DNA from: a virus
Virus record (IMG/VR): IMGVR_UViG_3300032316_000163
Span: 1 to 28,553 of that record
DNA length: 28,553 nt
Strand: one strand, 5' to 3'
Positions within the stretch are counted from its first letter, which is position 1, and each line of letters starts with the position of its first letter. The translations under genes were made by a program, and so were the position numbers. This document shows, one piece after another, positions 4,167 through 21,439 of the stretch. The notes beneath the pieces are model-generated. The model was not told the origin of the DNA and searched no databases. It worked only from the letters and a program-made list of their open reading frames with translations.

Positions 4167-5161
4167 CAATTACAAGTAAGACAAGCGGGGTTGGTTATCA
4201 TAGGATCATAATGCCAATAGTTAATATGCGTAAAGACTATTGCTTAATGACAGATACAATAAGCGAAGAAACATTTGAAGGCAATTATGATATTGTAGTA
4301 TTAAATAGAATGCTTGCTAATATAACAACAGAGCAAATGATAGAATGGCGCAAAAAGTACGGGTTTAAATTAGTAGTTGATAATGACGACTATTGGCAAC
4401 TTGATCCTTCTCATATACTTTACGAACGATATATTTTAAATAACGTAACCCAACAGATTATAGATTGGATTAAGGTAGCCGATCTTTGTACTTGTACGCA
4501 CGAAAGATTAGCAGAGCAAATATATCAATACAATCAAAATGTAGAAATATTACCGAACGCTATTCCATACGGAGAAGAACAATTCCTTTTAGATAAAAAG
4601 CCTTCTGATCTTGTTAGGTTATTTTGGTCAGGATCAGGAACGCACGGAAGAGATATAGAAATATTAAGAAATCCAATGAAGCGAATTAACTTTCCTGTGA
4701 GGACAATCATAGCAGGATTTAATGAAGGTGAAAAGCCAATTTGGGACGGAATGATTTGCGCATTTACAAATGGATTAAAACTAAACCCAACAATTTACAA
4801 TTATAATGCGGTAACTGAATATATGGCAGCTTATTGCGATTCAGATATTTCATTAATACCTTTAGTTAATTCAAAGTTTAATTCAATGAAATCAAATTTA
4901 AAAGTGCTTGAAACTGCATCAAAAAGAAATCCTGTTATTGTTAGTAATGTAGATCCATACAAAGGTAATTATCCAGCATGTCACGTTAATAGTCAAAAGG
5001 ATTGGTATTATTGGATAAAACTTTTGGTAAATGATGAAGCTGCAAGAATTAGTTATGGTCAAGATTTATATGAATATTGTAATAAACACTATAATTTGCA
5101 TGAAGTAAATAAAAAGAGATTTTCTATTTATAATAAAGTAATAGGAAATGCCAGTAATTAA
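4154..5161 (+). CDS. GT-B-like glycosyltransferase
   Basis: This 335-aa protein starts with MRILAITSKTSGVGYHRII, a glycine-containing opening seen in diverged GT-B transferases. VLNRMLAN and LVVDNDDYW follow in the N-terminal domain, and LPNAIPYG leads into the C-terminal domain, which has the strand LVRLFWSGSG and the donor-site motif NLKVLETASKRNPVI. The last is in the position of the EX7E nucleotide-sugar site of GT4 enzymes. It is shorter than typical GT4 proteins (about 370-400 aa) and the N-terminal GGxG is weak. It closes the acyltransferase-methyltransferase-glycosyltransferase cassette and overlaps the next gene by 14 bases. Its target could be lipopolysaccharide, a virion protein or modified DNA. 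Confidence 0.8.
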   Translation: MRILAITSKTSGVGYHRIIMPIVNMRKDYCLMTDTISEETFEGNYDIVVLNRMLANITTEQMIEWRKKYGFKLVVDNDDYWQLDPSHILYERYILNNVTQQIIDWIKVADLCTCTHERLAEQIYQYNQNVEILPNAIPYGEEQFLLDKKPSDLVRLFWSGSGTHGRDIEILRNPMKRINFPVRTIIAGFNEGEKPIWDGMICAFTNGLKLNPTIYNYNAVTEYMAAYCDSDISLIPLVNSKFNSMKSNLKVLETASKRNPVIVSNVDPYKGNYPACHVNSQKDWYYWIKLLVNDEAARISYGQDLYEYCNKHYNLHEVNKKRFSIYNKVIGNASN

Positions 5162-5570
5162 ATGCTCAAATGGAAAATATAGAATAGGAAATGGATCTTG
5201 TGTATATCAAACAGAAGAAAAAGCTCAAGAAGCATGGGCAGCAATTAGAGTTGCAATGGCAGATAGTTATAATGACTACCCACAAGCAGCAAGAGTAAAT
5301 GCGCAAAGGGCAATAAATATAAGAGATCAATATAAAACAAAATGCGGAACACCTGTTGGTTGGGCAAGAGCAAATCAATTAGCTAAAGGAGATAATATTA
5401 CAAGAGACACTATAGCAAGAATGTCTTCGTTTGAAAGACATAGAGATAATTCTAAAGGTGATCCTAAAAAAGATTGTGGAGCACTTATGTGGTTAGCATG
5501 GGGAGGAGACGAAGGAGTTGCATGGGCTAAAAGAAAACTCGATCAAATAGATAATGAAAAAACACGTTAA
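5148..5570 (+). CDS. Conserved phage-domain protein (KCSNGKYRIG / AWGGDEG type)
   Basis: This 140-aa protein joins two short modules that I recognise from phage head-region proteins but cannot name with certainty. Residues 1-32 (KCSNGKYRIGNGSC, then EEKAQEAWAAI) resemble a short repeat often found beside phage proteases and portals. The rest, with RVNAQRAINIRDQY, GWARANQLA, MSSFERHRDN and MWLAWGGDEGVAWAKRKL, resembles a helical domain found fused to or near prohead proteases and portals. The gene follows the glycosyltransferase and precedes HNH and terminase genes. A packaging or morphogenesis role is inferred from the company it keeps. Confidence 0.7.
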   Translation: MPVIKCSNGKYRIGNGSCVYQTEEKAQEAWAAIRVAMADSYNDYPQAARVNAQRAINIRDQYKTKCGTPVGWARANQLAKGDNITRDTIARMSSFERHRDNSKGDPKKDCGALMWLAWGGDEGVAWAKRKLDQIDNEKTR

Positions 5571-5811
5571 AATTTATTTAGATCATTTTGGGTATGGAAT
5601 GGAAGATTTTATACCATGCGAAGTTTGTGGCAAAAAAGCAGTAGACATACATCATATAAATTCAAGAGGAATGGGAGGATCTAAAAATTGTGACACTATA
5701 GACAATTTGCAGGCATTATGTAGATACTGTCATACAGTCATGGGTGATACTAAAACACATTACGATTTTTTAAAAGAAAAACACAATAAAGTTTTAAATG
5801 GCAAAGATTAA
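5554..5811 (+). CDS. HNH endonuclease
   Basis: This 85-aa protein carries a full HNH beta-beta-alpha-metal motif: zinc-binding Cys22/Cys25 (CEVC), the catalytic His in DIHHI (33-34), Asn51 in DNLQAL, and CRYCH with Cys56, Cys59 and His60. A small HNH nuclease beside terminase genes is a known arrangement. HK97 gp74, for example, works with terminase in DNA packaging. The gene overlaps the upstream gene by 17 bases and the downstream tiny basic gene by 14. A packaging nuclease is more likely than a homing endonuclease, because it sits in the operon as a compact, coupled gene. Confidence 0.88.
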   Translation: MKKHVKIYLDHFGYGMEDFIPCEVCGKKAVDIHHINSRGMGGSKNCDTIDNLQALCRYCHTVMGDTKTHYDFLKEKHNKVLNGKD

Positions 5812-5920
5812 TTCAGACAATAGAAAAACAAATTTTGGTAAAAGAAAAAGAGGATCAGCAAAAAAATCTTTTAATAAACATTCTCCTAAAGAAAAATCTT
5901 ATAGGGGTCAAGGTAGATAA
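5798..5920 (+). CDS. Tiny basic protein ending in YRGQGR
   Basis: This 40-aa reading frame has an ATG inside the end of the HNH gene and a TAA one base before the small-terminase ATG, so it fills the gap exactly. The product is strongly basic (about a third Lys or Arg) with the run KRKRGSAKKSF and the ending SYRGQGR. I recall similar very small, basic proteins with that ending beside terminase genes in Bacteroidota phages, but this is memory, not a search. It could bind DNA or RNA. The tight fit between neighbours is the best evidence that it is translated. Confidence 0.65.
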   Translation: MAKINSDNRKTNFGKRKRGSAKKSFNKHSPKEKSYRGQGR

Positions 5921-5921
5921 T

Positions 5922-6335
5922 ATGGCAAACGAACAAAATTTAAAACCTTTTAAAAAAGGGTTTGATGAAAAAAGAAATATTAATGGTAGACCTCGTAAAT
6001 ATGTATCTAATCTAAAAGATCAAGGATATAAAATGGCGGAGGTTAATGATGCAATACAAGTACTCATGTCAATGACACAAAAAGAATTGACTGAAGTATC
6101 TACTAATCCTGATGCAACTGTTCTTGAAATGACTGTATCTAAAGCAATGCTTAAGTCAATGAAAAATGGTAGTTTATATTCATTAGATACATTACTTACA
6201 AGATCATTTGGTAAGCCAAAAGAAACAGTTGATACAAATATTAATGGAGAATTAAAAGCAAAGATTGAAGTAGTTGTAACTTCAAGTGCCATTCCATTAT
6301 CAAATAGAGAAACCGATGTAGATGTTACAAGATAA
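5922..6335 (+). CDS. terS: Terminase small subunit (putative)
   Basis: This 137-aa protein is placed as the small terminase subunit, which recognises the phage genome and hands it to the motor. The N-terminus has FKKGFDEKRNINGRPRKY, a form of the N-x-x-GRP-(K/R) motif common at the start of small terminases. Helical segments follow (VNDAIQVLMSM, then VLEMTVSKAMLKSM), and then LDTLLTRSFGKPKE, which resembles the end of the oligomerisation core. The longer frame from 5835 is rejected because it would read through the tiny basic gene. It overlaps the large subunit gene by 14 bases. Confidence 0.78.
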   Translation: MANEQNLKPFKKGFDEKRNINGRPRKYVSNLKDQGYKMAEVNDAIQVLMSMTQKELTEVSTNPDATVLEMTVSKAMLKSMKNGSLYSLDTLLTRSFGKPKETVDTNINGELKAKIEVVVTSSAIPLSNRETDVDVTR

Positions 6336-7485
6336 AATATTTGACACAACAGATGTATTTCAAGCAAATAGAGATGCAAATTTAGACATTGTAGTAAATC
6401 AAGGTGGAACCTCTTCGGGTAAAACTTATGCTATTATGCAGAATTTATTTTTACATGCCATAGAAGAACCTAATCAGGTTATAACAACCGTAGGACAGGA
6501 TATACCAAACTTAAAAGTTGGAGCTCTTAGAGATGCTGAAAACATTGTAGATTCAAGCGAGTTGTTACAACAATACATAAGTAGTTATAACAAGACAGAT
6601 CGTATATTTCATTTTTTTAATGGATCTGTACTTGAATTTAAAAGTTATGATGATTGGCAAGATGCCAAATCTGGTAAGCGTGATTATTTATTTATGAATG
6701 AGGCTAATGGTATACCTAAGCCAATATGGGATGAATTATATTTTAGAACAAAAAAGAAAAGTTATCTTGATTATAATCCAAATACTGAATTTTGGGTGCA
6801 CTCGGATTTAATAGGAAAAGATAATGTACAATTAATTATTTCAGATCATAGACATAATACTTTTTTAGATCAAAAAATACATGATAAGATCGAAGCAATA
6901 GAAGATCCAGAACTTTGGAAAGTTTATGCAAGAGGATTAACTGGTAAATTAGAAGGAGTAATTTTTAGAGACTACAATGTAATTTCAAATGTGAGTATTG
7001 ATGCTAAACTTATTGGATATGGTTTGGACTTTGGATATACAAATGATCCTACTGCATTAATTGCAATGTATAATCAAAATGGAGAATTAGTTTTAGATGA
7101 GTTAATTTACGAAAAAAGATTATTAAATGTTGATATTAGTAACAGATTAAGAGAATTAAATATTGGTGGAACTATTATTGCTGACTCTGCTGAGCCAAAA
7201 TCAATTGCAGAATTACAATCATATGGTTGGATGGTAGAACCTGCAAAAAAAGGTCAAGATAGTATTAGACAGTCAATTAATACCTTAAAAAGGTATAAGA
7301 TCAATGTGACACAAAGCAGTCATAATCTTAAAAAGGAGTTAAATAACTTTAAATGGAAGCAAAACAAAGATGGAAAGTTAGAGAATGTACCTGTAGACTT
7401 CTTAAACCATGCTATTGATGCCACAAGGTATGTATGTCTTAATCTATTAGACAATGTGTCACAAGGTAAGTACAGTTTTATATAA
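6322..7485 (+). CDS. terL: Terminase large subunit
   Basis: This 387-aa packaging motor has the ATPase P-loop GGTSSGKT (residues 28-35) and a Walker B region DYLFMNEAN (121-129) with the catalytic glutamate after it. The C-terminal RNase H-like nuclease supplies the acidic residues Asp236 (GLDFGYTNDPTAL), Asp288 (IIADSAEP) and Asp366 (NHAIDATRY). The layout matches the PBSX/Terminase_3 group. The length is slightly short for that group (about 400-450 aa), but both domains are complete. The nuclease cuts concatemers and the ATPase drives DNA into the head. The portal gene lies about 14 kb downstream, instead of next door as is usual. Confidence 0.96.
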   Translation: MLQDKIFDTTDVFQANRDANLDIVVNQGGTSSGKTYAIMQNLFLHAIEEPNQVITTVGQDIPNLKVGALRDAENIVDSSELLQQYISSYNKTDRIFHFFNGSVLEFKSYDDWQDAKSGKRDYLFMNEANGIPKPIWDELYFRTKKKSYLDYNPNTEFWVHSDLIGKDNVQLIISDHRHNTFLDQKIHDKIEAIEDPELWKVYARGLTGKLEGVIFRDYNVISNVSIDAKLIGYGLDFGYTNDPTALIAMYNQNGELVLDELIYEKRLLNVDISNRLRELNIGGTIIADSAEPKSIAELQSYGWMVEPAKKGQDSIRQSINTLKRYKINVTQSSHNLKKELNNFKWKQNKDGKLENVPVDFLNHAIDATRYVCLNLLDNVSQGKYSFI

Positions 7486-7601
7486 CTAATTGATTTTCAA
7501 TAGATTATCATTTATTTTAATATTTCTTGAAAAAAAGCTTGTAAAAATGAGCAAGATATGCAAGAAATGCTTAAATTAGCTATATAAACAAACAAACTAC
7601 C
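7486..7601. promoter_or_regulatory. AT-rich gap after terminase with a CTATATAA box
   Basis: This is a non-coding gap between the packaging operon and the next block. It holds CTATATAA at 7580-7587, 22 bases before the next ATG. The same 8-mer occurs in two other gaps (18574 and 19199). It also holds an 11-codon frame at 7547-7579 encoding MSKICKKCLN. A phage promoter is plausible because a new gene block begins here, but no match to the Bacteroidota TAnnTTTG consensus was found. Confidence 0.35.
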
Positions 7602-7778
7602 ATGAAAACTACAAACACAATTATTTGCACAAAAACTAACAGTTTATTTCAAACAGTGCAAGGAAGAAAAGCAACATTAAAAAGAGAATTCTTTTATAAT
7701 GGTGAATCTTATTTAAAAGGAATTTGGGAAGACACAAATGAAAAATTTGAGTTGCCTTCTTATTTTTTTAATAATTAA
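7602..7778 (+). CDS. Small hypothetical protein
   Basis: This 58-aa frame begins at an ATG preceded by an A-rich leader (AACAAACTACC), like other starts here. The product has no membrane segment and contains GRKATLKREFFYNGE, SYLKGIWED and a FELPSYFF ending, a pattern of short beta strands. No family is recognised. It is the first gene after the terminase block and sits upstream of a small membrane protein and the nucleotide genes. Normal codon use and the leader shared with nearby genes support translation. Function unknown. Confidence 0.55.
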   Translation: MKTTNTIICTKTNSLFQTVQGRKATLKREFFYNGESYLKGIWEDTNEKFELPSYFFNN

Positions 7779-7789
7779 AATTTACTAAT

Positions 7790-7939
7790 ATGAATCGTTT
7801 GAAAACCCCTCGACAAAAACAGTTAGAGCATTACGAGAAAATGAATGAAATTTATAAAAAAGACAGTCTTGACTTTAAGTGGTTTTTTATTATTATTATT
7901 TCGGCATTATTATTAACGGCAGTAATTGAAAATCTATGA
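7790..7939 (+). CDS. Small single-pass membrane protein
   Basis: This 49-aa protein has a basic, charged N-terminal half (MNRLKTPRQKQLEHYEK) and one hydrophobic helix, WFFIIIISALLLTAVI (residues 31-46), near its C-terminus. That predicts a single-pass inner-membrane protein with the basic part in the cytoplasm. The stop overlaps the next ATG as ATGA, which supports it being a real, coupled gene. No family is recognised. A holin-like role is unlikely because the lysis genes are elsewhere, at 27 kb. Confidence 0.55.
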   Translation: MNRLKTPRQKQLEHYEKMNEIYKKDSLDFKWFFIIIISALLLTAVIENL

Positions 7940-8205
7940 GTAACATTTTAAAAGATGCTCATAAAATTGTCTATGAGCGAACTGAAGAGAAGGCAAGACA
8001 ATATGGTCCATTTGTAGAAGGCATGCAACGTGCTGCACATATTTTAAATGGAATGACAGGATTAAATGTTGATGCAACTGTAATGTACAAAGCAATGATT
8101 GCTTTAAAATTATCTCGTGAGTCTTATAATCATAAAGAAGATAATTTATTAGATGCAGTAGCATACATGTCCTCAATGAACGATTTTTTAAACCAAAAAC
8201 AATAA
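7936..8205 (+). CDS. DUF6378-like small helical phage protein
   Basis: This 89-aa helical protein fits the pattern I associate with DUF6378: a first helix followed by KARQYGPFVEGMQRAA, then a central helix ending MYKAMIALKLSRES, then a helix starting with acidic residues, EDNLLDAVAYMSSM. The placement of Gly, Lys-Leu-x-Arg and the late Asp resembles small all-alpha MazG-like NTP-pyrophosphatases, although no enzyme activity is proven for this family. It sits upstream of a second MazG-like protein and deoxynucleotide enzymes, so a role in the nucleotide pool is reasonable. The start is coupled to the gene before it by ATGA. Confidence 0.68.
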   Translation: MSNILKDAHKIVYERTEEKARQYGPFVEGMQRAAHILNGMTGLNVDATVMYKAMIALKLSRESYNHKEDNLLDAVAYMSSMNDFLNQKQ

Positions 8206-8209
8206 AAAA

Positions 8210-8410
8210 ATGGAACAGATCACAGTTGGAACACAAGTACAGTTTGAATCTTTTGCTAAGCCAAAAAAAACAGTAAATGGTGAAGTAATTAAGATTTTTA
8301 CAAGTAAAAAAGACAATAAAGAATATTGTCAAGTAAAAGTAAATGGCAAACTAATTTCTAAACAATTGAGCAAAGTCATTGTACAACAAGAAGTACAACA
8401 AGCTCAATAA
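8210..8410 (+). CDS. Small beta-rich hypothetical protein
   Basis: This 66-aa basic protein alternates short strands: GTQVQFESF, VNGEVIKIF, YCQVKVNGKLI. Lysines and glycine turns lie between them, a pattern like a small SH3-like or KOW-like barrel. It ends in a Gln-rich tail (VQQEVQQAQ). No named family is recognised. It starts four bases after the DUF6378-like gene and is followed by a methyltransferase, so it belongs to the nucleotide-gene operon. Nucleic-acid binding is possible from the fold guess, but not shown. Confidence 0.6.
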   Translation: MEQITVGTQVQFESFAKPKKTVNGEVIKIFTSKKDNKEYCQVKVNGKLISKQLSKVIVQQEVQQAQ

Positions 8411-8421
8411 AAAACCTACCT

Positions 8422-9174
8422 ATGAAAAAATATAACACTACAGACTTAGATCCTGTATCTACATTTGAAAGGCATGTATTTCACAGAGATCAATTTGCTC
8501 ATTATCTTAGATGGTCACATATTGTTAAAGAAGCTAAGATCGGCGAGACAGTAGTTGATTTTGGTTGTGGTAAAGGCAATATGTTAGAGGTATTTTATAG
8601 AAACAAATTTAAATGCAAAAGATATGTTGGAATAGACATACGTAAGCATACAATTGAATTAGCAAAAGAAAAGTTTGCTGCTGTAGAATGGGCAGAGTTT
8701 TATGCAGATGATTTAATTGTGCCTACATTAGACTACAAACAATATCAAGCAGACAAAGTATGTTCATTTGAAGTAGCAGAGCACGTAGGCAAACAAAACA
8801 TAGAAGCATTTCTTACTAACATGAGAGACTGTGGAAATGAAAATGCAACATATTACATAAGTACTCCTAATCATGATGAGCAAGTAGGAGCCGCAGGTAA
8901 TCATACTTACGATTCTGGAGACGGAAGAGGAGTTGCAATACATGAATTTAACCACTTTGAGTTACAAGCACACATTGAAAAGTTTTTTACTATTGAAAAG
9001 AAATTTGGAACGTTTGCTTCAATTACTCATTATAAGCATTTGCTTAATGATTGGCAAATACAAATGTTTGAAGCGCTTAAATGTTATTATGACAGTAACA
9101 TGTTAAGTGTAATCATGGCACCATTTTTTCCAGAACAATCTCGCAATACTTTGTGGGTATTAAAACGCAAATAA
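8422..9174 (+). CDS. Class I SAM-dependent methyltransferase (type 11-like)
   Basis: This 250-aa protein has motif I VVDFGCGKGNML (about residues 44-55), YVGIDIR (68-74) for the ribose contact, and VCSFEVAEHV (112-121) as motif IV. The second half, with YISTPNHDE, a Gly/Asp-rich loop (SGDGRGVAIHEF) and an aromatic C-terminus, probably forms a substrate lid. There is no NPPY or cysteine loop of DNA methyltransferases, so direct DNA base methylation is not indicated. It lies in the nucleotide block two bases upstream of the MazG-like gene. A small-molecule or modified-nucleotide substrate is possible. The substrate is unknown. Confidence 0.82.
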   Translation: MKKYNTTDLDPVSTFERHVFHRDQFAHYLRWSHIVKEAKIGETVVDFGCGKGNMLEVFYRNKFKCKRYVGIDIRKHTIELAKEKFAAVEWAEFYADDLIVPTLDYKQYQADKVCSFEVAEHVGKQNIEAFLTNMRDCGNENATYYISTPNHDEQVGAAGNHTYDSGDGRGVAIHEFNHFELQAHIEKFFTIEKKFGTFASITHYKHLLNDWQIQMFEALKCYYDSNMLSVIMAPFFPEQSRNTLWVLKRK

Positions 9175-9175
9175 T

Positions 9176-9523
9176 ATGGAACTAAAAAACGAATTTGCTC
9201 CAATAAGACATTGGGCAGAAAACAGAGGACTATATGAAAAAGGCGACGTCAAGACACAATATATTAAATTGCAAGAAGAATGTGGAGAGTTAGCTAATGC
9301 TATTTTAAAAGATAACAGAGCAGAATTTATTGACGCTATTGGAGACATTGTTGTTGTGTTAACTAATCTTACTGAATTAAGCGGATTTAAAATAGAATGT
9401 AAAGGCGACATACAAAGTATAAGAAGTATTACGATCGAAGATTGTATTAATTCAGCTTATACAGTAATTAAAAACAGATCTGGATCTATGCAAAATGGTA
9501 CATTTATAAAAGATGCAAAATAG
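9176..9523 (+). CDS. MazG-like NTP pyrophosphohydrolase
   Basis: This 115-aa protein has the MazG-type metal site: LQEECGELANAI (Glu34, Glu35, Glu38), then EFIDAIGDIVVVL (Glu50, Asp53, Asp57), all within four-helix segments. After the catalytic core it keeps the family ending NRSGSMQNGTF. Such proteins cleave (d)NTPs to NMP and pyrophosphate and are often used by phages to shape the nucleotide pool. The length suits the short, single-domain form. It is followed with a small overlap by dCMP deaminase, which would use the dCMP released if dCTP is its substrate. That link is inferred. Confidence 0.86.
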   Translation: MELKNEFAPIRHWAENRGLYEKGDVKTQYIKLQEECGELANAILKDNRAEFIDAIGDIVVVLTNLTELSGFKIECKGDIQSIRSITIEDCINSAYTVIKNRSGSMQNGTFIKDAK

Positions 9524-9920
9524 AAATTTATTCTATATGAACTTGGCTCTTGAAGTAGCTAAAGCTTCTTACTGTCAAAGAAAGCAAGTAGGAGCATTAA
9601 TCGTACAAGGAGAAAATGTCATTGCAATTGGTTATAATGGTACAATAAGCGGTTTTCCAAATGTCTGTGAACTACAAGACGGAACTACCAGACCTGACGT
9701 CCTACATGCAGAGTCAAACGCAATAGCAAAATGTGCTAAATCATCTAACAGTTCAGACGGGGCGACTTTGTATGTAACTTTGTCGCCCTGCTTTGAATGT
9801 GCCAAGATCATAATACAATCTGGAATAAAAGATGTATATTACTTAGAAGAGTATCGTAATATCGATGGTTTAAACCTACTAAACAAATCAAAAATCTATG
9901 TTCAGCAAATCATATTATAA
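9513..9920 (+). CDS. dCMP deaminase
   Basis: This 135-aa zinc enzyme converts dCMP to dUMP. The zinc site is clear: HAE at residues 65-67 (His65 ligand, Glu67 proton shuttle) and PCFEC at 92-96 (Cys93 and Cys96 ligands). The surrounding GALIVQGENVIAIGYNG strand-turn and the region SGIKDVYY are typical of the deoxycytidylate deaminase family. The length fits the phage form. It overlaps the MazG-like gene by 11 bases and the thymidylate-synthase-family gene by 23, so the three are probably made together. dUMP would feed thymidylate synthesis if the next enzyme is a true ThyA. Confidence 0.92.
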   Translation: MQNRNLFYMNLALEVAKASYCQRKQVGALIVQGENVIAIGYNGTISGFPNVCELQDGTTRPDVLHAESNAIAKCAKSSNSSDGATLYVTLSPCFECAKIIIQSGIKDVYYLEEYRNIDGLNLLNKSKIYVQQIIL

Positions 9921-10545
9921 TGCAGAATTTGCATTTGAAAATCTATTTGACACAATAATGTCTGTAGGAGAAGAGAGAAATGGCACTAAGACACTTCACA
10001 ACGTATTAATAGAATTACAATCACCAGGAGACAATAATATAAAGACACCATGGAGAAAATGGAATAAAACCTATGCTCAATATGAATTTGATTGGTATAT
10101 GTCTGGAAATCCTAATGCGGTAGAAATATCTAAAAAAGCAAAGATATGGGCAAGCATGATGGACGCAAATGGTAATGTAAATTCTAACTACGGTTATCAA
10201 TGGCAAAGAAATGATCAACTAACTAAGGTAATAGATATGCTTAGAAATGATCCTCTGACACGTAGAGCAAGCATATCACTGTATGATGGTAAAGAATTAG
10301 ATCTATATACAAACGACACAATCTGCACATATGCAATAAACTTTTACATAGACAGAAATAACAGTTTAAGCATGCAAGTAATGATGAGATCTAACGATCT
10401 TGTATTTGGATTTTGTAATGATCAATATTGCTTTAGTGAATTACAACACATAGTTGCAAATGCCTTAAAATTACCTGTAGGAAAATACCATCACTATGTC
10501 TGCAATATGCACATATACGAAAGACATTATGATCTAAAGAAATAA
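9898..10545 (+). CDS. Thymidylate-synthase family enzyme, possibly dCMP hydroxymethylase
   Basis: This 215-aa protein has the core of thymidylate synthase: NYGYQW, LTRR (Arg pair for phosphate, 122-123), a cysteine at 143 in the catalytic position (TIC in place of PCH), MRSND (163-167) and HIYERH (205-210). In E. coli ThyA the motif after RSxD is GLPFN, where Asn177 selects dUMP. Here it is GFCND, placing Asp175 at that site without gaps. Asp at this position marks T4-type dCMP hydroxymethylase, so dCMP may be the substrate. It is shorter than ThyA (264 aa). Plain thymidylate synthesis remains possible. Confidence 0.85.
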   Translation: MFSKSYYNAEFAFENLFDTIMSVGEERNGTKTLHNVLIELQSPGDNNIKTPWRKWNKTYAQYEFDWYMSGNPNAVEISKKAKIWASMMDANGNVNSNYGYQWQRNDQLTKVIDMLRNDPLTRRASISLYDGKELDLYTNDTICTYAINFYIDRNNSLSMQVMMRSNDLVFGFCNDQYCFSELQHIVANALKLPVGKYHHYVCNMHIYERHYDLKK

Positions 10546-10547
10546 CC

Positions 10548-10778
10548 ATGTCAGGTAAATATCCTTATTTTAAACAAAACAATAAAACTATGCCAGATAT
10601 AGCAATGTGTAAAGGAATAGATTGCCCATTTAAACTGCAATGCTACAGATTTACAGCTAAACCAAGTGAATACCAAACGTATTTTTTAGATCCACCAGTT
10701 AAGAACGGAAAATGTGATTACTATTGGGGAGAAAATGCTGCAAAAATTATTAATTTACCTAAAATTCCTGTGAAATAA
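10548..10778 (+). CDS. Small four-cysteine protein
   Basis: This 76-aa protein has cysteines at 21, 26, 32 and 56 in the arrangement MCKGIDCPFKLQCYRF, then GKCDYYW, with a conserved-looking middle (KPSEYQTYFLDPP). Four cysteines spaced this way suit a zinc or iron-sulfur site. No enzyme motif is present. I recall proteins of this kind as common small unknowns in Bacteroidota phages, but this is not verified. It starts two bases after the thymidylate-synthase-family gene, so it is in the same transcription unit. Function unknown. Confidence 0.65.
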   Translation: MSGKYPYFKQNNKTMPDIAMCKGIDCPFKLQCYRFTAKPSEYQTYFLDPPVKNGKCDYYWGENAAKIINLPKIPVK

Positions 10779-10780
10779 CT

Positions 10781-10939
10781 ATGAAAAACTACTACGAACT
10801 AAAACAAACAACACTTGACAAGTTAGAAATTGAAGGACTTATTGAGAGGATCAAGAAACTTGAAAAAGAATTAGGACTTAAAGAATTAGAAATCAGACAG
10901 TTAAATAATAAACTTAGACAAACTGTTGAACAAGATTAA
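10781..10939 (+). CDS. Small coiled-coil protein
   Basis: This 52-aa frame starts two bases after the preceding stop. From about residue 12 onward the product is almost wholly charged helix with leucine heptads (LEIEGLIERIKKLEKELGLKE, then LEIRQLNNKL), a parallel coiled coil. No membrane segment or cysteine is present. The close spacing and the strong heptad pattern support a real gene. It could help a partner dimerise or act as a small regulator. No family is recognised. Confidence 0.6.
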   Translation: MKNYYELKQTTLDKLEIEGLIERIKKLEKELGLKELEIRQLNNKLRQTVEQD

Positions 10940-10985
10940 TTAAATATCAATTATATTTATTAAATTACATTCATAAACTACTACC

Positions 10986-11345
10986 ATGATAACTAATTTT
11001 GAACACATTACAAGAGAATTAACAGATGAAGAGTGCAAGTTAGTTCCAATCCTGATTAAAGGATTTAGCACTAAAAGAAAAGAAACTGCAGTAAAAGCCC
11101 CTGAAATTGTTGAGGCAATTAATAATCAAGCAGATAAGTTTGGATTAAAAAACAAATTTAGTGAAGTTAGATTAAGAAAAATAGTTAATTTTATACGATC
11201 AGAAGGTATTCTTCCCCTAATGGCAACATCAAATGGTTACTACTGCACGGACGATCGAGAAGAAATTAGATCACAGATCGACAGTCTTACTCAACGTGCA
11301 GAAGCAATCATGGTGTCAGCAAATGGTTTAAAAAAGTATCTATAA
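10986..11345 (+). CDS. Winged-helix-like phage protein
   Basis: This 119-aa protein opens with ITRELTDEECKL, then has a helical core APEIVEAINNQ followed by SEVRLRKIVNFIRSEG and GYYCTDDREEIRSQI, in the order helix, recognition-like helix, wing, as in winged helix-turn-helix folds. The C-terminus (SLTQRAEAIMVSANGL) looks like a dimerisation helix. It probably binds DNA and could be a phage regulator or replication accessory. It is the last gene before the structural region and lies behind a 46-base AT-rich spacer, so it may have its own promoter. Function inferred from the fold only. Confidence 0.65.
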   Translation: MITNFEHITRELTDEECKLVPILIKGFSTKRKETAVKAPEIVEAINNQADKFGLKNKFSEVRLRKIVNFIRSEGILPLMATSNGYYCTDDREEIRSQIDSLTQRAEAIMVSANGLKKYL

Positions 11346-11407
11346 TGGTAAAACTGTTACTTAAATATATAAAAAAGTAAACCTATAGATTTACAAAATC
11401 AATTATT

Positions 11408-12094
11408 ATGCAAACAAGAATGACATGGGACAAACTTACTTTATGGCAATATCAACAGATGATGCCAATTCTAACAGATCCTAACAAAGATTGGACAAAG
11501 TTAGATCAAGAAGTAAAACTATTGTGTATAATTACAGGATTAACAGAACATCAATTAGATAGTTTAGATTTGGTAACATTAAAAGAATTAAGATCTGAAT
11601 TAGATTTCTTAAATGAAGAAATAAAAGGCAAACCAGTTGATTTTATTATCGTAAATGGTAAAAAATACAGATGTGTTTATGAAATTAAATACATGCCAGC
11701 AGCAAGATATATTGAAAGCAAGGTTTTCTCTAAGAAAACTTTAGAAAACTTACATAAGATTGCGGCATCAATGGTTATACCACAAAAGAAGAATTGGTTA
11801 GGCAAATGGGTTGATGACATATATGATGCAAGTAAGCATGAGATGTATGCCATGGATATGCAAGAAGCAAATTATGTGCATGTCTACCATTCGCTTGTTT
11901 TTTTTTATCAAGTTTACAGAAATTGGATCGAAGTTTCTCAGGATTATATGGTAAAGGAGATGATGGAGGCGGGGATGAAGATGGAGGAAGCGAAACAAAT
12001 AGTCAATCTTTTATGTCAATCTATGGATGGCACTACACCTGCTATCTTATTGCCGCACAAGAAAATATTAGAATTGAGGAAGTCTTTGAAATGA
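11408..12094 (+). CDS. Tail assembly chaperone, zero-frame product
   Basis: This 228-aa protein is placed as the G-like tail assembly chaperone. It is a soluble helical protein with LTLWQYQQMMPIL and YEIKYMPAARYIESKVF segments, and it leads the tail gene block. Two features favour this call: the next frame (-1) stays open to 12177, and a T9 tract at 11898-11906 forms an in-phase T_TTT_TTT slippery heptamer at 11899-11905. Zero-frame residues 167-228 end with LLCQSMDGTTP and a basic helix. The tape measure gene lies 4 kb downstream, not directly after as in many siphophages. The leader contains an AATATATAA stretch. Confidence 0.7.
   Translation: MQTRMTWDKLTLWQYQQMMPILTDPNKDWTKLDQEVKLLCIITGLTEHQLDSLDLVTLKELRSELDFLNEEIKGKPVDFIIVNGKKYRCVYEIKYMPAARYIESKVFSKKTLENLHKIAASMVIPQKKNWLGKWVDDIYDASKHEMYAMDMQEANYVHVYHSLVFFYQVYRNWIEVSQDYMVKEMMEAGMKMEEAKQIVNLLCQSMDGTTPAILLPHKKILELRKSLK
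11899..11905 (+). promoter_or_regulatory. Probable -1 ribosomal frameshift slippery site (T_TTT_TTT)
   Basis: The heptamer lies inside a nine-T run (11898-11906) and is in phase with the zero-frame codons GTT TTT TTT TAT, so both slipping tRNAs would re-pair perfectly in the -1 frame. The -1 frame is open from 11842 to a TAG at 12175-12177. Tail assembly chaperone genes are a known place for such shifts. No clear downstream stimulatory hairpin or internal Shine-Dalgarno was found. A length error in the T run is the main alternative. Confidence 0.55.
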
Positions 12095-12177
12095 AAACAA
12101 TAGAGTTTTTAAATAAAATGGCATACATGAAAGCTAAAAACGCTTATGAGAGAGAAGAAGCAAAGCGATTAAGATAG
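11905..12177 (+). CDS. Tail assembly chaperone -1 frame extension (T-like domain)
   Basis: This is read if ribosomes shift by -1 on the T run. It would join residues 1-166 of the zero-frame protein to 90 new residues, 256 in all. The extension starts with an acidic glycine-rich linker (GKGDDGGGDEDGGSE) and then has a compact segment IYGWHYTCYLIAAQENIR, followed by EEVFEMKTIEFLNKMAYMKA and a basic tail. That pattern of Gly-Trp, a short hydrophobic helix and EFLN-x-x-x-Y looks like the T-domain of frameshifted tail chaperones. An ATG at 12091, coupled to the zero-frame stop by ATGA, could also give a 28-aa protein. Confidence 0.5.
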   Translation, partial: LSSLQKLDRSFSGLYGKGDDGGGDEDGGSETNSQSFMSIYGWHYTCYLIAAQENIRIEEVFEMKTIEFLNKMAYMKAKNAYEREEAKRLR

Positions 12178-12205
12178 TTTGTAGGTTTATTGGTAGTAAA
12201 CGATT

Positions 12206-12236
12206 CCCCTGGTATTTCAATACTGGGGGTTTTTTT
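12206..12236 (+). terminator. Rho-independent terminator after the chaperone gene
   Basis: CCCC at 12206-12209 pairs with GGGG at 12225-12228, and the stem continues inward through TGGTAT with ATACTG (two wobble pairs), closing on a TTCA loop. Seven Ts follow (12230-12236). It ends the chaperone transcript or dampens read-through into the next gene. Confidence 0.8.
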
Positions 12237-12239
12237 ATG

Positions 12240-12273
12240 CTGGTATTTAAGATCTATTTTTCTATTTAATTAC
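12240..12273 (+). promoter_or_regulatory. Leader shared with the 21.4-kb gap
   Basis: The leader between the terminator and the ATG at 12274 contains AAGATC, then CTATTTAATTAC directly before the ATG. The leader before 21472 has TTAGATC, then CTATTTAGTTAT, in the same place. The two share 10 of 12 bases just before the ATG and the GATC core upstream. It may be a promoter or a translation-start element repeated with the terminator. Confidence 0.35.
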
Positions 12274-12999
12274 ATGAGTGAAGCAAAAGCGCAAGCCAAG
12301 TTACTTAAAGAACAATTTTTAAAAACAGTTGGAGATCAATTTAACTTGATAGATCCTACTGAATTTCCTGTTGCTGAGCAATTGTTAATTTATTACGGAA
12401 AACTTTTTAATGATACAGTACAAAAAAATCTTGATAAATCAGGATCTATTGCATCTGGTAAAATTGGAGATCTTGCTGTACCTAAGATCACAAAGTTTGG
12501 TACAGATTATGAGATGATGCTTGGTTATGATAAAGATAATCCTGCTTCTGTTTACTATAAATATGTAAACAAAGGGGTAAAAGGTGTTGGAGGAGTAAAT
12601 CAAAAACCAAAAAGAGTTGCTTCTGACAGTCCATATGCATACAAAACACCATACCCAAATAAAAAGATGGCAACATCAATTTTGCAATGGTATAAGTTAG
12701 GTAAAGCAAAAACAAGTTCAGAAACACAGACTAAAAAGCTAAGTAAGACACAAAGAAAAAGTAAAAAATTAAAACAAGTAGTAAATAAAGCAGATTCACT
12801 TAAGACTTTAGCATATGCAACTGCATCTGCAATTAAGAGAGACGGTTTAAAAACTACTTCATATTTTGATAATGCTATTAAAAAGGTATTTGATAAAGGA
12901 TTTTTTGAAAGCATGGCAATAGCTTTAGGTGGTGATGTTCAAATTCAAATTAGACAAATAGGTAATAAAATAGAAAACAATGGCTATAACAATAAATAG
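12274..12999 (+). CDS. Putative head-tail connector or minor structural protein
   Basis: I start this 241-aa protein at the ATG at 12274, after the terminator. A longer frame from 12190 would read through the terminator. The middle has DTVQKNLDKSGSIASGKI, VPKITKFGTDYEMMLGY and YKYVNKGVKGVGG, a pattern similar to the gp10-like (HK97) group of head-tail joining proteins. The KKMATSILQWYKLGK segment follows. The lysine-rich stretch at about residues 145-180 is likely surface or DNA-facing. It lies between the tail chaperone and the large tail-tip genes, so a structural role is likely. The exact position in the virion is uncertain. Confidence 0.6.
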   Translation: MSEAKAQAKLLKEQFLKTVGDQFNLIDPTEFPVAEQLLIYYGKLFNDTVQKNLDKSGSIASGKIGDLAVPKITKFGTDYEMMLGYDKDNPASVYYKYVNKGVKGVGGVNQKPKRVASDSPYAYKTPYPNKKMATSILQWYKLGKAKTSSETQTKKLSKTQRKSKKLKQVVNKADSLKTLAYATASAIKRDGLKTTSYFDNAIKKVFDKGFFESMAIALGGDVQIQIRQIGNKIENNGYNNK

Positions 13000-14194
13000 T
13001 GTTCCAGCTACTTATCCATCAATGCATGATGATTTGTGGTTTGTCGCTTCTTCTACTAATGTAGGAGTAACAAACTTTAAATTTGTGTATGATGTTTACA
13101 TTAATAGTTCTCAAGTAAGTAGAAACAAAATATTTCCTTCACCAAGTGCTGAAGGTTCTTATGGAGTATTTAATGCATCACCAATGGTAAGAGCATATGT
13201 GACAAATTATTTTGAACCATCTGGATCTACTGTTTTAATGGCATCAAATGATAAGATCAAAGTTGATTATCAAGTAAGAATAGGAGAAGAGGTTAGTGGT
13301 GCAGTAGTTGCAAACTTGGCAAGCGGATCTTATTCAGCTTATAACTATTATCCACCTTTATTTGGTGATATATTTACAGAGAATGGCGAAGTACCATTGG
13401 TACTGTCAAACTATTATGATAATTTATTAATTGAAAACTATACAGATGACTGGTTAAGCGATCGTGATCAAAACGATATTACAATTGAATATGGAGATCA
13501 ATTCTTTATTACATTTTTAAAAATCACTGCAGGATCTTATAATTTATGGGTACAACCAACAAATGAAAATGGAACTGTTGGAACTGCTGTAAGTGGTGGA
13601 ATTACAATGACTGGACAATTTAATTTCTTTAATTTTCAAGCTGCTGCTATTAATACATGGGCTGGAAGTGAAATTATTACACAATCAACTTATGGATATA
13701 ATGTTTACATTACACTTGGAGCTGCTGTTACAAGAGTTTTAAAATTTAAACAAGTATGCAATCCAAAATATAGACAATACAATCTACATTTTTTAAATAG
13801 ACTTGGTGGATATGATTCAATGGCATTTAGATTAGTAAATAAAAGAAAGAGTGAGTTTCAAAGATCGTCTTATAGACGTAATCCTTATCAATTATCTAAT
13901 GGTCAAATGACTAACATAGATAGTTATAACAAGTACAATGAAACAACTTATAATTTTGCAATTCAGCATACTGATTATTACAATTTAACATCTGATTGGA
14001 TTAACGATCAAGATTACGCATGGCTTGCACAATTAGTTGCATCTCCTATTGTTTATATGGAAGTTCAAGGAGCATTTTTTCCAATAACTATTAGAAATAA
14101 TAATTATCAATATAAGTATCAAATATCAGATGGCTTATTTAATTTTGATTTAGAAGTTGAAGTTGGTAAATATTTAAACAGTCAATTTAGATAA
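12980..14194 (+). CDS. Putative tail structural protein (distal tail or baseplate)
   Basis: This 404-aa beta-rich protein has many short strands and Asn/Tyr turns, with no enzyme motif and no membrane segment. Notable parts are KVDYQVRIGEEV, LKFKQVCNPKYRQYNLHFLN, RLGGYDSMAFRL and VNKRKSEFQRSSYRR. I recall similar sequences in Bacteroidota phage tail regions but cannot name a family. It overlaps the connector gene by 20 bases, and its stop codon shares one base with the ATG of the 692-aa gene. Position and size fit a distal tail protein or a component of the tail tip. The order of tail genes before the tape measure is unusual. Confidence 0.6.
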   Translation: MAITINSVPATYPSMHDDLWFVASSTNVGVTNFKFVYDVYINSSQVSRNKIFPSPSAEGSYGVFNASPMVRAYVTNYFEPSGSTVLMASNDKIKVDYQVRIGEEVSGAVVANLASGSYSAYNYYPPLFGDIFTENGEVPLVLSNYYDNLLIENYTDDWLSDRDQNDITIEYGDQFFITFLKITAGSYNLWVQPTNENGTVGTAVSGGITMTGQFNFFNFQAAAINTWAGSEIITQSTYGYNVYITLGAAVTRVLKFKQVCNPKYRQYNLHFLNRLGGYDSMAFRLVNKRKSEFQRSSYRRNPYQLSNGQMTNIDSYNKYNETTYNFAIQHTDYYNLTSDWINDQDYAWLAQLVASPIVYMEVQGAFFPITIRNNNYQYKYQISDGLFNFDLEVEVGKYLNSQFR

Positions 14195-16272
14195 TGATAA
14201 GCACAGAAATTTATATTGAAGATCAATTAATAGATCTATTAAAAGATATAGGTACAGATTTTACTTATACTATTGATGATGTAAAAGAGTTTGGATCAAA
14301 AAATACATCATTTAGTAGAACTATTTCAATACCTGCTACTGCAAAAAATAATAAGATCTTAGGTTTTGCTTTTGATATTACTATGTCAAATGAGCACAAT
14401 ATAGATCTACCAAATGTAAATACAAACTTTACTCCATCTCAAGCTGCTAAATGCGAAGTTTATATTGATAAGATTCAGATTTTTAAAGGTGTTATTCGTA
14501 TTTTAGAAATAGTATCTAATAACAATACAACAGAATATCAATGTGCGGTGTTTGGTGAATTAGGTGGTTTTATTACTGAGTTAGGCAATAAGCGTTTAGA
14601 AGATTTAGATTTTAGCGAGTATAATCATACTTGGAATGTAACTACAATTGAAAATAGTTGGAATACAATAAATGGGTCAGGTTATTATTACCCATTAATC
14701 GATTACGGTAATGTTTCGAGTAATAAAGACGATTTTAGTGTTTCAGCTTTTAGACCTTCGTTATATGTTAAGGAATATATTGAAAAAATATTTGAAGATA
14801 CTACATACAGTTTAAATTGTGACTTTTTTAATACAGACTTTTTTAAAAAGCTTATTATACCAAATAACAGTCAAGGAATTCAAGGTACAAATGATAGATT
14901 TATTTTAGGTACGATTGCAGCAACAAAAACAATTTTAAATAGTAATACTCCAACAGCAAGAAATGCAAATTTGTCTTTTGATTCTACGACTTTACTTAAC
15001 TTTACAGAAAATGCAGGAAAAAGTATATTTACTTATACTGATGTTACAAAGACAATTAATGCATTGGCTACAATAACAGGCATTTATCAAACTGATGCTG
15101 CGTCATCTATTACTGCAACTTTATATGTTGGAGGTGTTGCAGTTCAAACATTGACACAAAATACATTTTCAGCAAACAATCCTTTTACTTTTAATATTAA
15201 TTTTACAGGTCAAATATTAAATACAAATCAAGTTAGTATTGAATTAAGTGTACCTGTAACTGCAAATACTTATATTGTTAATGTATCAAGTGCAAACTTT
15301 ACATTTACTCAATTAGCAGCACAGTTAACAACAGTCGCTTACAATGGTACTGTTTCAATCAATTCTAACTTACCAAAAGGAATATTTCAAAAAGACTTTT
15401 TTTTATCAGTATGTAAAATGTTTAATTTATATGTTTATCAAGATAATATAAATGAAAAGCAAATAAATATTGCTCCATATATTGATTTTTATTCTGATGC
15501 AGTAACTAATTCATTAGATTGGTCACAAAAAGTAGATACAAATTCAACTTGGTCTATAAAGCCAATGTCACAATTAAATGCACGTTATTATGCATATAAA
15601 TATACTGATGATTCAGACTACTTTAATGAAAACTACAAAAAGAAATACGTTCAATCATATGGTGATTTTTTATATGATTCTGAATTTGATTACATAAAAG
15701 ATACTGCGTCTACAAATATAATTTTTGCACCAACTATATTAACGCAACCAACTTCGCACGGACACCTTGATAAATATTTTTCGGCTATTTATAAATTATC
15801 TAATTATAATACACAAGAAGATCCAATGGATTCTGTAATTCGTATTTTAATGGCTAAAAAATTAAACATTGCGCACCAATGGCATATTAAAAGTGGAATT
15901 AATGGCGCAGGTACTAATTTAGCTTCATTAAATACTTACGGATATGCGGGACACTTGGACGACCCGACAAACCCAACAGTTGACTTAAACTTTGGCGCAC
16001 CAAAGGAATTGCAATTTCCTGCGACAACATACCCGACAAATAATTTATTTAATACATATCATAAACCATATATTTTAGAAATTACAGATATTGAAAGTAA
16101 ATTATTAACTTGTAGAGTATATTTAAATACATTAGATATTTATAATTTGGATTTTAGTAAGTACATATGGATTAATGGTGTACTATTTAGATTGAATAAA
16201 GTAGAATCTTATGATCCTACAGCATATAGGACAACTATGGTTAATTTATTAAAAGTAATAAACACAAATTAA
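14194..16272 (+). CDS. Putative tail hub or tail-tip protein
   Basis: This 692-aa protein begins IYIEDQLIDLLKDIG, with FGSKNTSFSRTISIPATAKNN (about residues 33-53), a pattern I associate with the hub-like tail proteins of Bacteroidota phages. The next 300 residues are beta-rich with TFSANNPFTFNINF-type strands that may form an immunoglobulin-like or carbohydrate-binding insertion. The later part, PKGIFQKDFFLSVCKMFNLYVY, looks like the hub beta-barrel. No lysozyme or peptidase motif is seen. It lies directly upstream of the tape measure gene with a one-base overlap, consistent with a tail-tip component that anchors the tape measure. Confidence 0.62.
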   Translation: MISTEIYIEDQLIDLLKDIGTDFTYTIDDVKEFGSKNTSFSRTISIPATAKNNKILGFAFDITMSNEHNIDLPNVNTNFTPSQAAKCEVYIDKIQIFKGVIRILEIVSNNNTTEYQCAVFGELGGFITELGNKRLEDLDFSEYNHTWNVTTIENSWNTINGSGYYYPLIDYGNVSSNKDDFSVSAFRPSLYVKEYIEKIFEDTTYSLNCDFFNTDFFKKLIIPNNSQGIQGTNDRFILGTIAATKTILNSNTPTARNANLSFDSTTLLNFTENAGKSIFTYTDVTKTINALATITGIYQTDAASSITATLYVGGVAVQTLTQNTFSANNPFTFNINFTGQILNTNQVSIELSVPVTANTYIVNVSSANFTFTQLAAQLTTVAYNGTVSINSNLPKGIFQKDFFLSVCKMFNLYVYQDNINEKQINIAPYIDFYSDAVTNSLDWSQKVDTNSTWSIKPMSQLNARYYAYKYTDDSDYFNENYKKKYVQSYGDFLYDSEFDYIKDTASTNIIFAPTILTQPTSHGHLDKYFSAIYKLSNYNTQEDPMDSVIRILMAKKLNIAHQWHIKSGINGAGTNLASLNTYGYAGHLDDPTNPTVDLNFGAPKELQFPATTYPTNNLFNTYHKPYILEITDIESKLLTCRVYLNTLDIYNLDFSKYIWINGVLFRLNKVESYDPTAYRTTMVNLLKVINTN

Positions 16273-18551
16273 TGGCAGAAGAAGTAATTGGTATAAAAAT
16301 AACCACAGACGCAGCAAATGCAACCGCTGAAGTACAAAAATTAGACAAAGCATTTTCAGATACAGATACATCTGTAAAAAGTTTAAGAACACAACTTAAA
16401 GAGGCTCAAGCACAGGTTGGTTTAATGGCTGATAAGTTTGGAGCAACATCTAAAGAAGCGGTTAATGCTGCTAAAAAAGCCGCAGATCTTAAAGATCGTA
16501 TTGGTGATGCAAAAGCATTGACTGACGCATTTAATCCTGATGCAAAGTTTAAGGCAGTTGCTTCTTCATTAGCAGGTGTTGCTGGTGGATTTAGTGCACT
16601 TCAAGGTGCAATGGCTTTATTTGGAAATGAAAACAAAGATGTAGAGAAAGCATTGTTAAAGGTAAATGCTGCAATGGCGTTGTCTCAAGGTTTACAGGCT
16701 GTTGGTGAAAGCGTGGATTCATTTAGACAATTAGGTGCAGTAATTAAAAGTACAACAGTATTTCAAGAATTAAATAATGCTGCAACAAAAACAGCTACAT
16801 TTGTACAAAAGGCATTTGGCATAGCAACTGTTGAAACAAGTCAAGGATTTAAAGTTTTAAAAGGCGCTATTGTTGCAACAGGAATTGGCGCATTGGTTGT
16901 TGCTTTGGGTTTAGTAATAAATAACTTTGATGCAATTTCAGATTGGATAAAGAAAAGTCCACTTGGCGCATTAGCAAAAGGCGTAGGTGGATTAGTAGAA
17001 CAATTTACAGATTTTATTGGTGTAACAAGCGAAGCAGAACGTAATTTAAATAAATTATCAGTTGCTAATAAACGTGCAAATGAAGATATTGAAAACAGGA
17101 TTAAAGTATTAAAAGCTCAAGGTGGATCTGAAGATGAGATTTACAAATTAGGACAAAAAAGAGTTGAAAACGAATTAAGTACTTTACGTGAAAGTTTAAA
17201 AACAAAAGGTAAATTAACAGAAGAAGAAAATAAACAGTTTAGAGATTTAAAAACTGAGCAATTAGTTTTAACTGCTGATTATAATAAAAAGACTTCTGAT
17301 GCTGCAGCAAAGGCAAATGAAGAAAGTAAAAAGAAACGCGATGAAGCAAATAAGCAAGCTATTGAAGATAAGAAGACAGCTGATAAAATGCTTATTGATT
17401 TACAGAATGAAAAAGCATTAGCTGAAATTACTTCTGAAGATGACAAAGCAAAGAAACAAGCAGAGATAAATTATAATGCACGTGTAGCAGAAATCGATGC
17501 TTTAAAAGTTGATGTAAAAACAAAGAACGAATTAAAAAAAGCAACTGAAGAAGCTTATCAATTAGAAGTAAAAGACATTGACGATAAGATAAAAGAAAAA
17601 CGTGCTGAAAACGATAAAAAGTTTGAAGAAGAATTACAAACAACATTATCAGAAGCAAGAATAGCTAAATACAAAGAAGGTAAAGAAAAAGAAGTTGCGG
17701 CATTAGACGAGGCTTTAGTTGCTGATACAAAAAAAATCTTAGACAATGCAGATTATACAGAAATTCAGAAAAAAGTACTAATTGCTGCATTAAAAGAAAA
17801 GCATGGTGCTGAACTTGGAGAAATAGATGCTAAATATGTAAAAGAAGCAGATGACAAAGAGCAAGCACGTTTAGATTCTATTGTAAATAATGAAAACCTT
17901 TCATATGCAGCAAGGAAGCAAGGCGTTGATGATGCATTAGCTTTAAATAAAAAATTATTTGCAGAAGGTAAAATTGACAGTGTAGCATATACTAAAACTG
18001 AAAAAGAATTAGCTGATGCAAGAGTTGAAATTGGTAAAAAAGAAGCATCTGCAAGAGCTGAAAATGCACAAAAAATTAGTTCAACATTAAAAAATGCTGC
18101 TAAAGCAATTGGTGAACATACTGTCGCTGGTAAAGCTGCTGCAATAGCTGCTGTTACAATTGATACTTATATGTCAGCAACATCTGCATTTAAGTCTTTA
18201 GCTGGAATTCCAATTGTTGGTCCTGTATTAGGTGCGGTTGCTGCAGCTGCTGCTATTGTTGCAGGATTAAAGAATGTAAAAGCAATCTTAGCAGTTAAAA
18301 CACCTGATGTACCTGCTGGAAGTTCTGAACCTGGATTTGTTGACATACCAAGTCCTGGTGCACCTGCAACTGGCGGTGCTATGCCATCTTTAGGTGGTGG
18401 TGCGACTCCTAATTTAGGTGGTGGAGGAGGAGGAACTGGTAATGGTGGAGGTGGTAATGGAAATACAATAAGAGCTTATGTTGTTGAACGTGATATTACT
18501 AATTCTCAAAGTAGACAAGAAGAAATTCAAAACAGAGCAAGATTTGAATAA
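16272..18551 (+). CDS. Tail tape measure protein
   Basis: This 759-aa protein sets tail length and is ejected with the DNA. It has a helical N-terminal part, a hydrophobic segment KGAIVATGIGALVVALGLVI (about residues 197-216), a long charged coiled coil rich in Lys/Glu (about 250-590), a second hydrophobic stretch near 620-670, and a glycine-rich tail with several GGGG runs before a closing AYVVERDITNSQSRQ. The usual rule of about 0.15 nm per residue gives a tail of roughly 110 nm, which is an estimate from length alone. No lytic domain is seen. The protease gene follows after a short AT-rich gap. Confidence 0.88.
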   Translation: MAEEVIGIKITTDAANATAEVQKLDKAFSDTDTSVKSLRTQLKEAQAQVGLMADKFGATSKEAVNAAKKAADLKDRIGDAKALTDAFNPDAKFKAVASSLAGVAGGFSALQGAMALFGNENKDVEKALLKVNAAMALSQGLQAVGESVDSFRQLGAVIKSTTVFQELNNAATKTATFVQKAFGIATVETSQGFKVLKGAIVATGIGALVVALGLVINNFDAISDWIKKSPLGALAKGVGGLVEQFTDFIGVTSEAERNLNKLSVANKRANEDIENRIKVLKAQGGSEDEIYKLGQKRVENELSTLRESLKTKGKLTEEENKQFRDLKTEQLVLTADYNKKTSDAAAKANEESKKKRDEANKQAIEDKKTADKMLIDLQNEKALAEITSEDDKAKKQAEINYNARVAEIDALKVDVKTKNELKKATEEAYQLEVKDIDDKIKEKRAENDKKFEEELQTTLSEARIAKYKEGKEKEVAALDEALVADTKKILDNADYTEIQKKVLIAALKEKHGAELGEIDAKYVKEADDKEQARLDSIVNNENLSYAARKQGVDDALALNKKLFAEGKIDSVAYTKTEKELADARVEIGKKEASARAENAQKISSTLKNAAKAIGEHTVAGKAAAIAAVTIDTYMSATSAFKSLAGIPIVGPVLGAVAAAAAIVAGLKNVKAILAVKTPDVPAGSSEPGFVDIPSPGAPATGGAMPSLGGGATPNLGGGGGGTGNGGGGNGNTIRAYVVERDITNSQSRQEEIQNRARFE

Positions 18552-18573
18552 ATGATAATTAATTTAAAAAAAA

Positions 18574-18581
18574 CTATATAA
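18574..18581 (+). promoter_or_regulatory. CTATATAA box before the prohead protease
   Basis: This exact 8-mer lies in the 34-base AT-rich gap after the tape measure gene, 12 bases before the protease ATG. It is the same sequence found at 7580 and 19199. A Pribnow-like or phage-specific -10 element is a guess. Confidence 0.3.
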
Positions 18582-18585
18582 TATT

Positions 18586-19179: not shown

Positions 19180-19198
19180 TAAACATTTGATTTAATAA

Positions 19199-19206
19199 CT
19201 ATATAA
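19199..19206 (+). promoter_or_regulatory. CTATATAA box before the scaffold gene
   Basis: This identical 8-mer lies in the 37-base gap after the protease gene, 18 bases before the scaffold ATG and inside an A-rich leader. It is the third copy in the window, all in gaps before genes. Confidence 0.3.
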
Positions 19207-19216
19207 AACAAAAAGT

Positions 19217-19825: not shown

Positions 19826-19837
19826 AATTAAATAACA

Positions 19838-20800: not shown

Positions 20801-20805
20801 TATTA

Positions 20806-20830: not shown

Positions 20831-20853
20831 ATAAAATTTAAAAATTTAAAAAT

Positions 20854-21375: not shown

Positions 21376-21405
21376 TAACTTAGTTTTTCATAGGTTTAAG
21401 GTTTG

Positions 21406-21436: not shown

Positions 21437-21439
21437 ATT

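Follow-up and report, generated by a model that had tools for sequence, protein, structure and literature searches.

Long dual coding after a conserved nine-T run in a probable tail chaperone gene of a phage family

The window analysed here, 28,553 nt of viral DNA (positions 1 to 28,553 of IMG/VR record IMGVR_UViG_3300032316_000163), contains a gene in which the comparison of homologous sequences strongly supports a -1 change of reading frame at a run of nine T's (T9), followed by long dual coding. The same comparison confirmed that 62 to 85 codons after T9 are under selection in both frames, indicating that two protein ends are specified by one stretch of DNA. We consider it fairly likely that the gene encodes a G/GT-type pair of tail assembly chaperones, whose slip exchanges the C-termini instead of merely extending G.

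The T9 run and its two reading frames

The gene and its site comprise the following features.

11408..12094, + strand: zero-frame gene ‘G’, 228 aa, probable tail assembly chaperone (open frame; IMG/VR homologues)
11898..11906, + strand: T9 run, invariant (same phase in 227 of 228 informative loci and in phage P12024S)
11899..11905, + strand: slippery heptamer T_TTT_TTT in the zero-frame phase (sequence)
11905..12177, + strand: -1 frame ‘T’ extension, 90 aa (open and conserved in distinct homologues with the site)

The zero frame starts with the ATG at 11408, reads T9 as GTT TTT TTT TAT and stops at 12092-12094. An earlier note on this DNA had described the heptamer as in phase, the -1 frame as open from 11842 to 12177 and the zero frame as continuing for another 62 residues to its own stop. 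All of this was borne out: the -1 frame is free of stops from 11842 until 12175-12177. Counted from the heptamer, 62 codons remain in the zero frame (189 nt with the stop) and 90 in the -1 frame, so that the predicted product of a -1 slip, the GT fusion, would be 256 aa long and read ...SLVFFLSSLQK... across the junction. The overlap of about 250 bases that had been proposed agrees with the 253 nt over which both frames are open. Its part upstream of the heptamer, however, is incidental, because a -1 stop lies at most 30 codons upstream of T9 in 164 of 166 distinct homologues; the conserved two-frame part is the 189 nt after T9 (~255 nt in one clade).

Relatives were collected by scanning IMG/VR with the -1 peptide (62 loci) and with alignments (347 and 408 relatives, 80 fetched from each). 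The last scan used the domain upstream of T9 alone as its query, so that the run could not bias the result. Exactly nine T's in the same phase were present in 227 of the 228 informative loci, and these 227 amount to 166 distinct sequences and 32 representatives (<85% identity). The run is preceded by Val, Ile or Leu and followed by Tyr or Cys, with the nine T's always kept. Against the codon usage of the same genes, and with sequences treated as independent, finding the three third-position T's in all 32 representatives has a log10 P of about -28; a chance origin of the conserved T9 is excluded. Nor is the T count a sequencing error, since contigs assembled independently from many metagenomes all show the same number. 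Distinct homologues with the site keep the -1 frame open after T9 rather than broken by stops. In complete sequences (the deletion variant L089 apart) it runs for 83-95 codons downstream of the run, which, together with the -1 stops close upstream, indicates that this frame is maintained from T9 onward.

The only exception among the 228 loci, L151, differs from an otherwise identical sequence by a 98-nt deletion (within 5001-5900), which takes out T9 and fuses the G domain in frame with the T domain; it may be an assembly error or a natural fused variant. L151 and L089, the latter with an internal junction, look like assembly or deletion variants and were left out of the dual-coding tests. In IMGVR_UViG_3300043436_001856, a 63-kb contig, the G/GT region occurs twice (L081 and L108), ~31 kb apart, possibly one genome assembled twice.

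A cultured relative was found only via a fold search. gp38 of Nonlabens (Persicivirga) phage P12024S matches the G profile (hhalign 95.2%, E 2.7e-8) at ~20% identity and reads CTT TTT TTT TAT at the corresponding position, its T9 being in the same phase and the alignment resting on the same FFY. At this level of divergence, a shared T9 implies that the site is old. The P12024S -1 frame spans 81 codons and carries a GW-like motif (WSWYHT); between the two T parts, only a motif-level alignment was obtained, the hhalign match not being significant. The zero-frame extension of P12024S is only 25 codons long (78 nt with the stop), as opposed to 62 codons in the window gene. In the P12024S record, gp38 and gp39 are annotated as two separate hypothetical proteins. 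The fold search also led to Flavobacterium phage 6H, in which a size-matched gene (L237, 9950-10960, minus strand) ends in RCFFYSTR and a stop, four codons past a T6C run; a T-like -1 frame follows the T6C, but with a TAG two codons past the site. One relative of the window gene sits in a contig of a Chitinophagaceae metagenome-assembled genome. Taken with the Nonlabens and Flavobacterium phage matches, this points to Bacteroidota as the probable hosts.

Selection on both frames and the predicted C-termini

Differences between family members, tabulated by codon position, amounted to 0.29/0.20/0.51 upstream of T9, became flat within the overlap (0.27/0.30/0.31) and returned, in the -1 phase, to 0.32/0.20/0.52 past the zero-frame stop. 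This is the succession of normal coding, double coding and normal coding in the other frame. Synonymous change was compared in 73 disjoint pairs. In the -1 frame it was 0.065-0.097 within the overlap against 0.276 past the zero-frame stop (lower inside the overlap in 56 of 67 informative pairs), and in the zero frame 0.051-0.155 against 0.258 upstream (lower in 68 of the 73 pairs). The homologue comparison proposed in the earlier note thus revealed synonymous constraint in both frames of the overlap and, along with site conservation and codon-position rates, upheld its reading of a -1 frameshift with dual coding.

One clade, in which the zero frame continues for 81-85 codons past T9, allowed the same -1 codons to be compared under either condition. 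Synonymous change at -1 codons 70-83 was 0.111 where the zero frame continues and 0.295 where it has ended (P 1.3e-7), a contrast that speaks for selection on the zero-frame extension itself. When codons were drawn at random among synonyms, preserving only the -1 protein left the zero frame open in 0.3-6% of draws per sequence, and preserving only the zero-frame protein left the -1 frame open in at most 0.8%.

AlphaFold2 models of the products were built from 32-sequence alignments and, with these, the two C-termini could be divided into the following segments.

11906..12031, + strand: G-specific helices, residues 167-208, conserved, replaced in GT (AlphaFold2; suppressed -1-frame synonymous change)
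12032..12091, + strand: zero-frame C-terminal tail, residues 209-228, predicted to be disordered, opposite the folded T domain
11950..11994, + strand: acidic, Gly-rich linker of the -1 frame, T residues 16-30, predicted to be disordered, opposite zero-frame helices
12001..12171, + strand: helical T domain of the -1 frame, residues 33-89 (pLDDT ~90; alignment)

The G model (mean pLDDT 82) places the slip point, residue 166, within a helix spanning residues 156-176, with helices 178-187 and 192-208 coming next, both predicted with good confidence. The G-specific block has a pLDDT of 81-92 to about residue 200 and of 60 over 201-210; in the tail behind it, values fall below 50 (residues 208-214 and 216-228). 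Missing from GT would be zero-frame residues 167-228; the first part of these, 167-208, is conserved and predicted to be helical. The -1 product begins with a short, low-confidence helix ahead of the linker, which itself scores below 50 and is variable in the alignment. The T domain carries an invariant F-x4-GW and LN-x3-Y-x-K. The Gly-Trp and EFLN...Y motifs singled out in the earlier note were therefore genuine, with G41, W42, L69, N70 and Y74 of the -1 product invariant in the 32 representatives. In these models, the ordered part of each frame lies mostly opposite a disordered part of the other, suggesting a division of labour between the frames.

Slippage by ribosome or polymerase

Since established G/GT frameshifts are ribosomal (PMC5009743) and the site of phage P2 is similarly T-rich, a ribosomal -1 slip is the default reading, and we regard it as probable. 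Most ribosomes would then pass T9 in frame and produce G (228 aa), and a fraction would shift back by one nucleotide on T_TTT_TTT and produce GT (256 aa), composed of G residues 1-166, the short helix, the flexible acidic linker and the small helical domain. As the slip falls inside a G helix, GT would be left without the last conserved G helices and with a different C-terminus.

Bacterial -1 frameshifting is usually helped by downstream RNA structure and by an upstream Shine-Dalgarno-like stretch. At T9, the downstream RNA folded no better than shuffled sequences (z +0.8 to +1.6), a search for consensus pairs revealed no conserved structure after the site, and no conserved purine-rich, Shine-Dalgarno-like stretch was found upstream of it. 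This lack of stimulators is one reason to treat transcriptional slippage as a serious alternative to ribosomal frameshifting, albeit an unlikely one. RNA polymerase would slip on T9 and produce mixed mRNAs, of which those with one extra U (or two fewer) would enter the T frame, giving the same proteins. Uninterrupted A or T runs of about nine or more are of the length expected for transcriptional slippage, and T9 is such a run. It always counts nine T's, two more than a ribosomal slip requires, and the outer positions are always T even though the flanking residues vary (Val/Ile/Leu; Tyr/Cys). Those outer T's could, however, be explained by the amino acids, as the second base of aliphatic codons on one side and, on the other, as the first base of Tyr and Cys codons combined with a Leu in the -1 frame.

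Runs of T7 and longer are avoided in the remaining genes of these phages, where they occur 22 times against about 57 expected. The scarcity of T8 (2 observed, 10.9 expected) and of A9 or longer runs (3 observed, 19 expected) would fit a polymerase that slips on such runs, but in-phase T7 is avoided as well (16 observed, 40 expected), as a ribosomal hazard would be, and T9 elsewhere is not clearly depleted (4 observed, 6 expected). The fuller proposal, that in Bacteroidota phages polymerase slips at T9 without stimulators to yield two chaperones with exchanged C-termini and ordered segments facing disordered ones, we hold to be slightly less likely again. Runs of A9 or A10 were also seen within long open frames (315-370 codons) of relatives, at 1072 in both L195 and L199, 477 in L170, 972 in L205 and 2314 in L058; these are possible further slippage sites.

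Chaperone function and comparison with known frameshifted tail genes

Besides a probable tape measure gene, the genome has genes for a terminase, a portal, a head protease and head and tail proteins. Two features downstream of G/GT bear on its surroundings.

12206..12236, + strand: intrinsic-terminator-like hairpin followed by T7, after the GT stop (10-bp stem; fold z -3.9 over 12196-12240)
16272..18551, + strand: probable tape measure protein, 759 aa, Ala/Lys/Glu-rich (PHROG 3336, E 9e-7; PHROG 2854, E 1.6e-4)

The hairpin with its T7 suggests that a transcript can end after the G/GT gene. From the GT stop (12177) to the tape measure gene (16272) the distance is 4.1 kb, as the earlier note had it, with three other genes between. 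The gene order from 6322 to 24234 is unusual: terminase, methyltransferase, dCMP deaminase and thymidylate synthase precede G/GT, and probable tail-tip genes, tape measure, head protease, head protein, a tail tube candidate (20854-21375) and portal come after it.

The identification of the gene as a tail chaperone, already put forward in the earlier note, is probable. A chaperone role is the most likely one because of the frameshifted pair, the tape measure gene and the fold matches of the G and T models to annotated tail chaperones, which are weak (E 0.48-4.6), together with a weak fold match of the T model to phiC31 gp42. Scans of G and the -1 peptide against Pfam and PHROG gave nothing relevant, and searches of the PDB by sequence and by fold nothing significant. 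No significant match emerged when G, GT and a distant homologue were run by tblastn against 50,697 phage records. Lambda G and T matched neither by sequence nor by profile; known members of the G/GT type have little sequence in common. A Pfam VWA7_N match of G (E 0.0014) was set aside as below the curated cut-off. Both the G model and the T model also match a single BFVD entry, A0A6J7WJY4 (243 aa), which, judging from these models, may have the two parts fused in one frame. If the pair works as in lambda, the tape measure protein would be bound by the shared domain and the tail tube protein recruited by the T domain, with the slip rate setting the G:GT ratio.

The frame change and dual coding could also be real but belong to another phage protein made in two forms, such as a head-tail or packaging factor, which we judge improbable. 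Such an assignment would fit the lack of any sequence link between G/T and known chaperones, and the P12024S homologue, gp38, directly follows the terminase gene. Yet the combination of a frameshifted pair, a small C-terminal -1 domain and a tape measure gene fits the chaperone pattern, both domains have their weak fold matches with annotated tail chaperones and with phiC31 gp42 (an annotated ribosomal-slippage product adjoining the tape measure gene), and no other candidate frameshifted pair was noticed in the window. Far less probable is independent translation of the T domain from an internal start codon, with T9 incidental, even though the annotators of P12024S gave the T part its own gene from an ATG at 23663: the -1 frame has no start codon conserved across the family (FM, FI or FA stands before GW), its conservation starts at T9 itself, including the LSSL/I-x-x-LD segment, and an invariant T9 is at odds with an incidental run. 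Least credible of all, and already at odds with the comparative data, is that only one frame matters, the other being open by chance or as a by-product, or that the T count is a sequencing error; the YGW codons of the -1 frame do largely determine the zero-frame MDG motif, but synonymous change is suppressed in both frames, the clade with a longer zero frame shows the corresponding drop in the -1 frame, and independent assemblies agree on the T count.

A chaperone pair with exchanged C-termini shares its general layout with lambda G/GT: each has one start, a -1 change near the end of a shared domain, a small -1 domain at the C-terminus and a tape measure gene in the same phage genome. The two differ in the slip site (G_GGA_AAG in lambda, a -1 ribosomal frameshift; T9 in the window) and in the length of zero frame that follows it, 18 nt in lambda against 189 nt in the window gene and ~255 nt in the sister clade. 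In lambda, T is appended to an almost complete G, whereas GT of the window would lack the last conserved G helices; retention of essentially all of G is usual in the known cases compared, though no strict requirement. Nor is the gene order lambda-like: the tail tube candidate lies at a distance from G/T, and the tape measure gene begins 4 kb further on. The E and E+E' products of P2 (T_TTT_TTG) resemble the window gene in their T-rich -1 site, common N-terminus and alternative C-termini; the zero frame of P2, however, ends 21 nt after the heptamer, its run has six T's, and the gene adjoins the tape measure gene. HK97 gp13/gp14 and phiC31 gp41/gp42 are annotated slippage tail proteins upstream of a tape measure gene, with a possible two-frame overlap of at most 52 nt and 82 nt, respectively.

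That the overlap is unusually long rests on these four yardsticks (lambda, P2, HK97 and phiC31), rather than on a survey, and on the literature, where searches of open-access papers turned up no tail chaperone described as having long dual coding. A short overlap, as in the known cases compared, makes the shifted product an extension of the unshifted one. Selection on both C-termini over 62-85 codons implies instead that the unshifted product has a C-terminal function of its own, with GT as an alternative form of the protein rather than a G to which T is added. Long dual coding by slippage occurs in this family as a clean natural example, in which sister clades of differing overlap serve as controls. 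The cultured P12024S makes testable whether ribosome or polymerase slips and what the G-specific end does in tail assembly. Genes of this kind stand in public records as two unrelated hypothetical proteins. Frameshifted tail chaperones as such are well known; what sets this gene apart is that a slip would exchange the C-termini, with both selected over a long two-frame stretch.
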